Below, one piece after another: positions 4,134-6,925 of a stretch of DNA of 32,933 nt. The position numbers and the translations under genes were made by a program. Source of the DNA: Luteolibacter sp. (GTDB lineage Bacteria; Verrucomicrobiota; Verrucomicrobiia; Verrucomicrobiales; Akkermansiaceae); assembly GCA_021298895.1 (NCBI GenBank), contig JAJTHK010000112.1:1-32933 (forward strand), read 5' to 3'. The stretch's first letter is position 1; each line of letters starts with the position of its first letter. A model generated the notes under the pieces. That model saw only the letters and a program-made list of their open reading frames with translations, was not told the DNA's origin and ran no database searches.

Positions 4134-5678
4134 TTAGTAGTCGTAACCTTCCTCGCCGTGTTCGGTGATATCGAGACCTGCGGTCTCAGATTCAGGTGTT
4201 GGGCGAAGGCCGATGACTGCTTTGATGATCAAGGCTACTACGGCTGTCACAACCACAGAAAGAACGATCGTAATACCCGCAACGCAGAGGTGATTGATCA
4301 ACAATGCGCTGGTGGCTTTGCCAGTTTCTGGGTTAAACATCGCTTGCAAGCCGTTCACTTTGGCATAGGCATCGCTCACCAAGTTAGGATTTACTTTGCT
4401 GTTAGCGAAAACCGCAGTGAGCAAGGCTCCAAGGGTGCCGCCAACTCCGTGAATGCCGAAGGTATCGAGCGAGTCGTCGTAACCCATTTTGGATTTAAGA
4501 AAGGTGCAAGCGAAGTAAGGAACAACGCCAGCCAAGATTCCCATGATGAAGGCAGATTGCGCGGTAACGAAACCTGCCGCAGGGGTGATCACCACGAGAC
4601 CGGCCACAGCACCGGAGCAAAGACCGAGAACGCTGACTTTGCCTCTGAGAACCTTTTCAATAAGACCCCAGGTGAAGGCTGCTACGGCAGCTGCAATGGT
4701 GGTGGTCATAAATGCCTGAGATGCAAGGCCATCGGCCGCGAGAGCGGAACCGGCATTGAAACCATACCAGCCGACCCAAAGCATCCCAGTGCCGACCATG
4801 CAGAGAACCATGTTATGAGGAGACATTTTCTCCTTACCGAAGCCAAGGCGCTTGCCAAGGATGAGACAGAGCACAAGAGCGCTCCAGCCAGAAGTCATGT
4901 GAACCACAGTGCCACCAGCGAAGTCGATGCTCGGAATTTTCGCGCCGCCATTCCAGACGCCGTTGAAAAGACCATCGAAGCCCCAGACCATGTGAGCCAT
5001 TGGGAAATAAACGAGCACCATCCAGATGGCACAGAAAATCATGATTGCGGAGAATTTCATACGCTCAGCGATTGCTCCGACGATGAGGGCTGGTGTGATG
5101 ATTGCAAACATCAGCTGATACATCGCAAAAGTGCTGTGGGATGGCCACGCAGTGTAGTTGGTGTTTGGGGCTCCACCCACGTCTTTCAGGAACGCGTATT
5201 TACTGAAGTCACCAAAGATGCCAGCCCAGCTTGGTGCGCCTTCCGCATCATGCTCGCCGAAAACCATGGAGTAACCAAAAGCAAACCACATGATCGTGAC
5301 CAAGCCTGCTAGGCCGAGACACTGAGCCATCACAGAAAGGATGCTTTTCTTACGAACCAGACCTCCGTAGAAGAGCGCGAGACCTGGCAGTGTCATGAAC
5401 AAAACCAGAGCTGCGCAGACCATCAAGAAGGCATTGTGGCCTGGACCAGGAAGTCCGGCTAGCGGTCCTGTAGGCGCCACGTTGTTGAAATACGCAAGTG
5501 TGTCTGCTGCTACGGCTGCTGCATCTGGAGCTGCTGGAGCGGCTTCTGCGGCAGCTTCAGTTGGGGCAGGTGGAGCCTCTTCCTGACCGAGGACGGTCGC
5601 TGGCATGAGAGGCATGGCGAAACAAGCCATCGCCGCTAGGGCAAGAGCTCGCAATGTTGTTGGATGTCTTCTTATCAT
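4134..5678 (-). CDS. amtB: Ammonium transporter (Amt/Rh family)
   Basis: An inner-membrane trimeric channel protein that takes up ammonium or ammonia. It has 514 residues: a cleavable signal peptide (about 1-31, ending near VLG), an Ala/Pro/Glu-rich periplasmic tail (about 33-60) and the 11-helix Amt core. Diagnostic segments are PGLALFYGGLVRKKS in TM1, DFAGGTVVHMTSG with the first pore histidine, and FGIHGVGGTLGALL with the second pore histidine. The C-terminal tail ends in ESETAGLDITEHGEEGYDY, which resembles the part that contacts PII proteins in other Amt proteins. No glnK/glnB is adjacent, which is unusual because amtB is often cotranscribed with a PII gene. A sigma-54 promoter lies 72-89 bases upstream of the start, so expression under nitrogen limitation is likely. 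A strong hairpin follows the gene. Confidence 0.95.
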   Translation of the reverse strand: MIRRHPTTLRALALAAMACFAMPLMPATVLGQEEAPPAPTEAAAEAAPAAPDAAAVAADTLAYFNNVAPTGPLAGLPGPGHNAFLMVCAALVLFMTLPGLALFYGGLVRKKSILSVMAQCLGLAGLVTIMWFAFGYSMVFGEHDAEGAPSWAGIFGDFSKYAFLKDVGGAPNTNYTAWPSHSTFAMYQLMFAIITPALIVGAIAERMKFSAIMIFCAIWMVLVYFPMAHMVWGFDGLFNGVWNGGAKIPSIDFAGGTVVHMTSGWSALVLCLILGKRLGFGKEKMSPHNMVLCMVGTGMLWVGWYGFNAGSALAADGLASQAFMTTTIAAAVAAFTWGLIEKVLRGKVSVLGLCSGAVAGLVVITPAAGFVTAQSAFIMGILAGVVPYFACTFLKSKMGYDDSLDTFGIHGVGGTLGALLTAVFANSKVNPNLVSDAYAKVNGLQAMFNPETGKATSALLINHLCVAGITIVLSVVVTAVVALIIKAVIGLRPTPESETAGLDITEHGEEGYDY

Positions 5679-5749: not shown

Positions 5750-5767
5750 AAGCAATGGACGTGCCAA
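5750..5767 (-). promoter_or_regulatory. Sigma-54 (RpoN) promoter of amtB
   Basis: On the minus strand the sequence is TTGGCACGTCCATTGCTT. This matches the sigma-54 consensus TGGCACG-N4-TTGC at every conserved position, with exactly 10 bases between the GG (-24) and GC (-12) pairs. Transcription would begin near 5741, giving a leader of about 60 bases before the amtB ATG at 5678. Sigma-54 promoters need an ATP-dependent enhancer-binding activator such as NtrC. For an ammonium transporter this points to induction under nitrogen limitation. Confidence 0.88.
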
Positions 5768-5889
5768 ATCCACGGAATCGCCATTCCCTCCTTATTTCAT
5801 CAATGAAAATCATAGATAAATACCTCCAAACAGCTGAAATAACCCTAACCCAGAAAATCATTTCCCCAGATTCCTCACCTTTTACCGGC

Positions 5890-5911
5890 AGCCAAAATGT
5901 GATTTTAGGCT
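5890..5911. promoter_or_regulatory. Imperfect dyad between the two sigma-54 promoters (possible activator site)
   Basis: AGCC-A-AAA-N6-TTT-A-GGCT forms an imperfect dyad of 22 bases. It sits about 120 bases upstream of the amtB -24 element and 60 bases upstream of the porin -24 element, within the usual distance for a bound sigma-54 activator. It does not match the enterobacterial NtrC consensus closely, so the assignment is tentative. The rest of the gap (5679-6065) shows no gene: a short minus-strand reading frame there lacks coding character. Confidence 0.3.
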
Positions 5912-5970
5912 GGACAGATCCTACGGATTGATTAAATAAGCGCTGCAACGGTTTGCCAGAAGTTTCTCCT

Positions 5971-5986
5971 TGGTACGCAGAATGCT
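5971..5986 (+). promoter_or_regulatory. Sigma-54 (RpoN) promoter of the TorF-like porin gene
   Basis: TGGTACGCAGAATGCT matches TGGCACG-N4-TTGCW with two changes. It keeps the invariant GG and GC pairs with the required 10-base spacing. Transcription would start near 5998, leaving a leader of about 68 bases before the ATG at 6066. The element overlaps any start codon near 5970, so it also argues against the longest reading frame of the porin gene. Confidence 0.75.
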
Positions 5987-6065
5987 AAGTTCTGTTCGCC
6001 ATATCTGTTCCATCAAGGATCAGTTTGGGATGCTAAAAGCAACTGAAACCAACAACAACAAAACT

Positions 6066-6821
6066 ATGCAAAACTACTACAAAACTATCGGTGCCCTCGT
6101 CGTAGCTTCCGCTCTCGCGGCAGGCAACGCTTCGGCAGAAGTCGAATCCGAGATCCACGCTGGATATACCAACGAGTATCTCTTCCGCGGACTTGACCTT
6201 GGTTCAAACCTCGTCGAAGCAGGTCTTGACGTCTCAACTGAATACAACGGTCTTGGCCTGAGTGCAGGTGCTTGGTATGGCTCATTTGACGCTCCTGTGC
6301 CGGCTGGTCTACCTGTAGCTGGTAGCTACAGCACATCAGAACTTGACCTCTACGCTGAAGTTTCCAAAGACCTTGGCTTCCTCACTGCAGCGGTCGGTTA
6401 CATCAAGTATATCAACGACGACACTTCTGCCGGTCTCGTTCCCAGCCCTACGAAAATCGACGACGCACAAGAAGTTTACTTCTCCCTTGCTAAGTCGCTC
6501 TACGGTGTTGATTTCTCCCTTACTTACTTCTGGGATATCGAAACCGACAACGATGGCTACGCAGAACTTGGTGCAAGCAAAAGCTTCGAACTCAGCCCAT
6601 GCCTTACCCTCAACACCGGCGCAGCTCTAGGTTACCTTGCTGAGCAAGGCCAAGTTGGTCACTTGACTGCAAAAGTCGCTCTCGACTATGCATATAGCGA
6701 AACAGCGACCATCTCGCCTTTCGTTGCGCATTCTTGGTCGCTTGGTGATGATAACGATACCGCTTATGAAAACACCGGTAACGAATTCGTTGCAGGCACC
6801 ATGCTTTCCGTTAGCTTCTAA
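6066..6821 (+). CDS. TorF-family putative porin
   Basis: A 251-residue secreted outer-membrane beta-barrel candidate. The signal peptide is clear (1-24, MQNYYKTIGALVV... ending GNASA, cleavage before EVES). The mature part begins with the family hallmark AGYTNEYLFRGLDLG, followed by alternating beta strands with glycine and aromatic residues (GLGLSAGAWYGSF). It ends in an aromatic residue (MLSVSF), as outer-membrane barrels do for BAM recognition. The frame is open back to 5970, but the upstream part overlaps the sigma-54 promoter. I chose the ATG at 6066 because the signal peptide starts there. An ATG at 6030 is a weaker option. Members of this family are small barrels of mostly unknown substrate. 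The shared intergenic region with amtB suggests passage of a nitrogen compound, which is inference. Confidence 0.85.
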   Translation: MQNYYKTIGALVVASALAAGNASAEVESEIHAGYTNEYLFRGLDLGSNLVEAGLDVSTEYNGLGLSAGAWYGSFDAPVPAGLPVAGSYSTSELDLYAEVSKDLGFLTAAVGYIKYINDDTSAGLVPSPTKIDDAQEVYFSLAKSLYGVDFSLTYFWDIETDNDGYAELGASKSFELSPCLTLNTGAALGYLAEQGQVGHLTAKVALDYAYSETATISPFVAHSWSLGDDNDTAYENTGNEFVAGTMLSVSF

Positions 6822-6849: not shown

Positions 6850-6882
6850 AAGAGCGGTTGCTTCGGCAGCCGCTCTTTTTTT
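6850..6882 (+). terminator. Rho-independent terminator of the porin gene
   Basis: A 12-bp stem with one G-T pair (6850-6861 with 6866-6877) closes a TTCG tetraloop and runs into a T tract ending at 6882. It starts 28 bases after the porin stop codon and isolates the porin from xylB. Confidence 0.93.
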
Positions 6883-6925
6883 GTTTCATCCTTGAACGTC
6901 TCGAAATTAACCGAAAACTCTCGGC

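Follow-up and report, generated by a model that had tools for sequence, protein, structure and literature searches.

The window analyzed here, a 32,933 nt stretch of a Luteolibacter sp. (Akkermansiaceae) genome (GCA_021298895.1, contig JAJTHK010000112.1, forward strand, positions 1-32,933), contains a divergent pair of genes encoding an amtB-type ammonium transporter (4134-5678, minus strand; 514 aa) and an outer membrane porin (6066-6821, plus strand; 251 aa including a signal peptide), the latter predicted to form a 12-strand beta-barrel. The AmtB protein passes the TIGR00836 model (409.4 bits against a cut-off of 343.3), matches PF00909, is the only Amt in the assembly (single match in a genome search), and carries a long, signal peptide-like extension ahead of the Amt core. 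The porin start was placed at the ATG at 6066 because this codon and the C/A-rich leader directly 5' of it (GCAACTGAAACCAACAACAACAAAACT, 6039-6065, plus strand) are conserved in relatives; an in-frame ATG at 6030 is not and was rejected. Downstream of the porin gene, a terminator-like hairpin with a T run (6850-6885, plus strand), read directly from the sequence, suggests a one-gene transcript.

Each of the two genes is preceded by its own sigma-54-type element. Both promoter sequences given in a preliminary description of the locus are present, at 5766-5751 (minus strand) and 5971-5986 (plus strand), with the GG-N10-GC spacing intact. That description called the promoters face-to-face, which is incorrect: they diverge, back to back, with about 205 bp between their -24 elements. 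Taken alone, the GG-N10-GC frame is uninformative (264 occurrences in the window vs 245 expected), and sites were scored against the consensus TGGCACN5TTGCW. The promoter of amtB, TGGCACGTCCATTGCT (5751-5766, minus strand), matches this consensus perfectly and lies 73 nt from the amtB ATG (5678). The 2.76 Mb assembly has only three further perfect sites, and no perfect site appeared in 2000 dinucleotide shuffles of the intergenic region; this rarity in the genome and in the shuffles, together with conservation in relatives (see below), rules out a chance match. The porin-ward site, TGGTACGCAGAATGCT (5971-5986, plus strand), deviates from the consensus at two positions, with T for C in the -24 element and A for T in the -12 element, and its -12 C is 80 nt from the porin ATG, within the position cluster of the relatives. 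About 16 sites with two or fewer mismatches are expected in the window, so that the quality of this site is marginal on its own; with GG and GC fixed, a porin-strand site with at most two mismatches arises in 4.3% of shuffled intergenic regions. The porin-ward site is convincing by its family-conserved position rather than by its own sequence: a chance match is rejected at the family level by enrichment, and the window alone does not exclude it. No such site precedes the second porin homolog of this genome, which is encoded on contig 62 and not next to amt.

A screen of the family recovered the porin gene from 148 of 260 genomes. The divergent arrangement, which the preliminary description proposed to look for in related genomes, is common: in 85 of the 107 porin upstream regions sampled from Akkermansiaceae, an amt gene in divergent orientation is found no more than 3.5 kb away. 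Every one of these 85 pairs retains an amt-ward site with two or fewer mismatches (none in 51, one in 30). The porin strand carries a site with at most two mismatches in 46 of the 99 non-redundant upstream regions, compared to a shuffle mean of 2.3 (maximum 6), and most of these sites fall into two narrow distance bands before the start codon (40 vs 0.29 expected), a cluster at 74-88 nt and a lower band at 8-18 nt, all of these being simple consensus counts over related sequences that are not independent. The lower band probably reflects start codons picked too far upstream. Overall, the amt-ward site is better conserved than the porin-ward site, which about half of the relatives have in decayed form, several of them with the GG lost, and which is degenerate even in members of the same genus (L039, L041, L042). 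At two loci (L051 and L052), the porin has moved off amt to a position beside a histidine biosynthesis gene, and a two-mismatch site persists. Two Amt types, about 30% identical to each other, occur as the partner, indicating that the divergent arrangement outlived exchange of the Amt. In L036, the Amt is 98% identical to that of the window and the intergenic region is nearly identical, whereas the porin is just 57% identical, so that sequence divergence or exchange proceeds much faster in the porin than in the Amt. In another relative (L032:2533-4173), two extra genes, by eye encoding a coiled coil-like and a further porin-like protein, lie between amt and the porin.

Alignment of 40 intergenic regions showed conservation of the amt promoter, a block CTGGACAnnTCCTnnGGAaaNGTNAAatAt with its partner CAACGGAnnGnnTCCAGC, the porin promoter and the C/A-rich leader. 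In the window, the block reads CTGGACAGATCCTACGGATTGATTAAATA (5910-5938, plus strand); it contains a GGA-N4-TCC palindrome and, judging from the alignments of relatives, is a candidate activator (enhancer) site. Its right-hand partner, with the consensus CAACGGA..G..TCCAGC in relatives, appears to be represented here by the degenerate GTTTGCCAG (5951-5959, plus strand), and the left and right copies are, by reading of the alignment, about four helical turns apart. Palindromes of the form GGA-N4/5-TCC number 30, compared to 5.2 in shuffled sequences (shuffle maximum 12), again as simple counts over related sequences. The simplest reading of the block would be a single enhancer through which one activator serves both promoters. 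Without mismatch, the block occurs once in its own genome, and a search at the promoters of the PII and GlnII genes of this genome did not find it. A general nitrogen-activator motif is thus unsupported, given this uniqueness and the different upstream element of the PII promoters, and the block may not be the site of the general nitrogen activator. In L133, L138, L141, L157 and others, a reversed TTTGGCACG-like copy is located just upstream of the CTGGACA block; it reads CGTGCCAAA toward the porin, that is, an amt-facing -24 look-alike with an apparent N9 spacing, which roughly mirrors the placement of the porin -24 element and is degenerate in the window. No other part of the intergenic alignment is as conserved as the leader; this GCAACCGAAAACCAACAACA-like sequence could be a translation element or a small-RNA target, and an Rfam search of the leader and intergenic region yielded nothing near a gathering score.

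The genome encodes one RpoN, the absence of which the preliminary description had named as an argument against its proposal, along with one Amt, one PII protein and two full sigma-54 activators, each of which contains a receiver domain. Three of the four perfect sigma-54 sites precede amtB, the PII gene and the gene for a GlnII-type glutamine synthetase, and the fourth falls inside a coding frame. The site of the PII gene is 30 nt from its ATG, and all 30 genomes of the genus that were examined, this one included, have a site with no or one mismatch 26-42 nt upstream of this gene. Judged by gene content, this is a sigma-54 nitrogen regulon, nitrogen control being deduced from what Amt, PII and glutamine synthetase are known to do. 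Both activators are denoted NtrC-like only, because their scores against the NtrC equivalog model TIGR01818 (429.1 and 409.6 bits) are below its cut-off of 558.6. The activator gene on contig 62 follows a gene for a PAS histidine kinase, and this NtrC-like activator and kinase (L081/L281) are about 9 kb from the second porin homolog of the genome. In a sigma-54 activator on contig 150 of the same assembly (L080:1063-2445), the phospho-acceptor Asp of the receiver appears to be missing (VVSAISLQPFDG), and Pfam detects no Fis-type DNA-binding domain. Across Akkermansiaceae, rpoN was found in 235 of 254 genomes. One genome (G107; locus L053) combines a perfect amt-ward site with no rpoN match at 98% completeness, which implies that either rpoN fell into a gap of the assembly or the sigma factor was lost.

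The preliminary description assigned the porin to the TorF type, and this assignment holds only as remote similarity. A structure model built from seventy family sequences has 12 strands (mean pLDDT 87.9), in agreement with the outer membrane beta-barrel of about 240 residues with a signal peptide expected of TorF, but the TIGR02001 (TorF) score of 25.7 bits is under the curated cut-off of 47.15, and a Pfam search of the window porin gave no match, Gcw_chp (PF09694) included. The protein is therefore best regarded as a remote TorF/Gcw_chp relative that shares length, signal peptide and barrel with that group. Among the relatives, PF09694 matches 20 of 70 porins at E-values up to 0.01, and about half of the family members give weak TIGR02001 matches. 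A sequence search against the PDB with the porin gave no meaningful match; among solved structures, the closest folds are those of KdgM, PcoB and NanC (Z 16.5-17.6), with KdgM at Z 17.6 and 11% identity, a resemblance in fold only. The mature porin has a net charge of -26, which is compatible with cation passage and proves nothing. Its acidity exceeds that of the window's LptD-like protein, and order-level homologs are acidic as well, so that acidity is weak evidence of cation choice.

The link between this porin group and ammonium transport extends beyond the divergent promoter pair. The family porin profile was searched against 194 genomes of the phylum, and 25 loci outside the order were inspected. 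In 13 of these, amt and/or PII genes lie within 1.5 kb of the porin gene, 11 of them with amt, PII and porin following one another in this order on the same strand, which further supports the nitrogen role suggested for the porin in the preliminary description. Four amt-PII-porin loci have a sigma-54 site with no or one mismatch shortly before the first amt; others show no such site. Several Akkermansiaceae genera show the order amt-amt-porin, which brings the gene orders of the association to at least three (divergent, amt-amt-porin and amt-PII-porin). By genomic comparison, the recurrence of this linkage in varied arrangements is stronger evidence of a functional tie than a single promoter pair. 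Distant homologs from the same order that are located away from amt (L059, L063, L068, L073, L074 and L075) have sigma-54 sites with no or one mismatch upstream, and sigma-54 control of the porin group may accordingly exceed nitrogen uptake. Genes of TorF proteins may lie near glnK-amtB in some Proteobacteria, which we take as a lead only; a search for porin homologs on plasmids found none, and the four plasmid amt regions inspected contain no annotated TorF porin.

Taken together, these comparisons suggest that the preliminary description recorded a real feature of the locus under a mistaken geometry, and they strengthen its interpretation short of proof. The sigma-54 coupling of amtB and the porin appears well supported by comparison, given the presence of rpoN, the retention of the amt-ward site in all pairs, and the occurrence of the porin-ward site above chance at a fixed position; the porin-ward half is the weaker one, with its imperfect site here and decay in about half of the relatives, and the original interpretation as a whole is best described as partly supported.

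We consider it likely that the locus is the uptake module of a sigma-54 nitrogen regulon in this Akkermansiaceae bacterium, in which amtB and the porin are jointly raised. Under this scenario, nitrogen limitation, the presumed signal, would activate an NtrC-like activator, presumably one shared by both genes and probably bound at the conserved block (5910-5938) as an enhancer; this activator would open RNA polymerase-sigma-54 at the two divergent promoters, AmtB in the inner membrane and the small acidic 12-strand porin in the outer membrane would rise together, and scarce ammonium or small amines might pass the porin, presumably as cations or ammonium, and reach AmtB. A broader and more tentative proposal, to which we give somewhat less than even weight, is that the porin group is a dedicated, phylum-wide outer membrane partner of Amt-PII, a nitrogen-induced pore for ammonium or small amines encoded either in a shared string or in a divergent sigma-54 pair with its own enhancer.

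The strongest challenge concerns the substrate. It is possible, if not the reading we favor, that the porin passes an organic amine, an amino acid or an acidic oligosaccharide and is induced by nitrogen limitation for general scavenging rather than acting as a partner of Amt. Nitrogen depletion induces the porin BCAL3473 of Burkholderia cenocepacia, which is linked to sigma-54/NtrC and lets amines through (PMC10117139), and the nearest folds are the oligosaccharide porins KdgM and NanC; a fold match, however, says nothing about the substrate, and the repeated linkage is specifically to amt and PII. The second challenge concerns the promoter: amtB alone would be under sigma-54 control and the porin would be transcribed from another, for example, sigma-70-like, promoter, the -24/-12-like site being a vestige or a coincidence. 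The enhancer reading has its main competitor in a sigma-70 promoter inside the block. A TGGACA-N16/17-TAAATA-like spacing is present there (5911-5938), and the two mismatches of the porin-ward site here and its loss in about half of the relatives fit as well. Nevertheless, the -10 half of the block has no consistent TANNNT, the porin-ward sites are enriched (46 vs 2.3) and clustered (40 vs 0.29), and they persist in L051 and L052 where the porin left amt, so we regard this explanation as unlikely. Equally improbable, in our view, is control of both genes by sigma-54 through different activators or signals, as neighbors without joint switching: two activators in the genome, the lack of the block at the PII and GlnII promoters and the better conservation of the amt-ward site would fit it, but the two promoters have a single conserved block between them, suitably spaced from each, and distant relatives string amt, PII and the porin co-directionally.

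Control of PII and Amt by sigma-54 is textbook knowledge. The joint-uptake reading resembles the glnK-amtB operon (NtrC, sigma-54) in that sigma-54 promoters stand before Amt and PII and the genome has rpoN and NtrC-like activators, and differs in that PII is encoded elsewhere in the genome and the divergent partner is an outer membrane porin. General porins are the route by which ammonium is usually assumed to enter through the outer membrane, and we know of no assigned substrate for outer membrane proteins of this group. KdgM and NanC, small monomeric 12-strand porins and the best structural matches (Z 17.6 and 16.5), share about 10% sequence identity with the window porin and pass anionic sugars, whereas the latter is strongly acidic. 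BCAL3473 is similarly an outer membrane porin tied to sigma-54 and nitrogen, which is known for that protein and surmised for the window porin; no pairing with amtB is described for it, its -24/-12 spacer is over-long, and it is under small-RNA control. In a verrucomicrobial methanotroph, amtB is up three- to fourfold when fixing N2 (PMC3404531), and a sigma-54 regulon survey that covers Verrucomicrobiota mentions no porin (PMC12316311). Our literature search found no paper that joins TorF, Gcw_chp or the present porin group with ammonium.

The analysis outlines a sigma-54 nitrogen regulon comprising amt, PII, GlnII and the porin in a phylum on which the searched literature says little in this respect. 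The conserved pairing of a porin wired to nitrogen with Amt and PII would give an uncharacterized porin group a specific, testable role.
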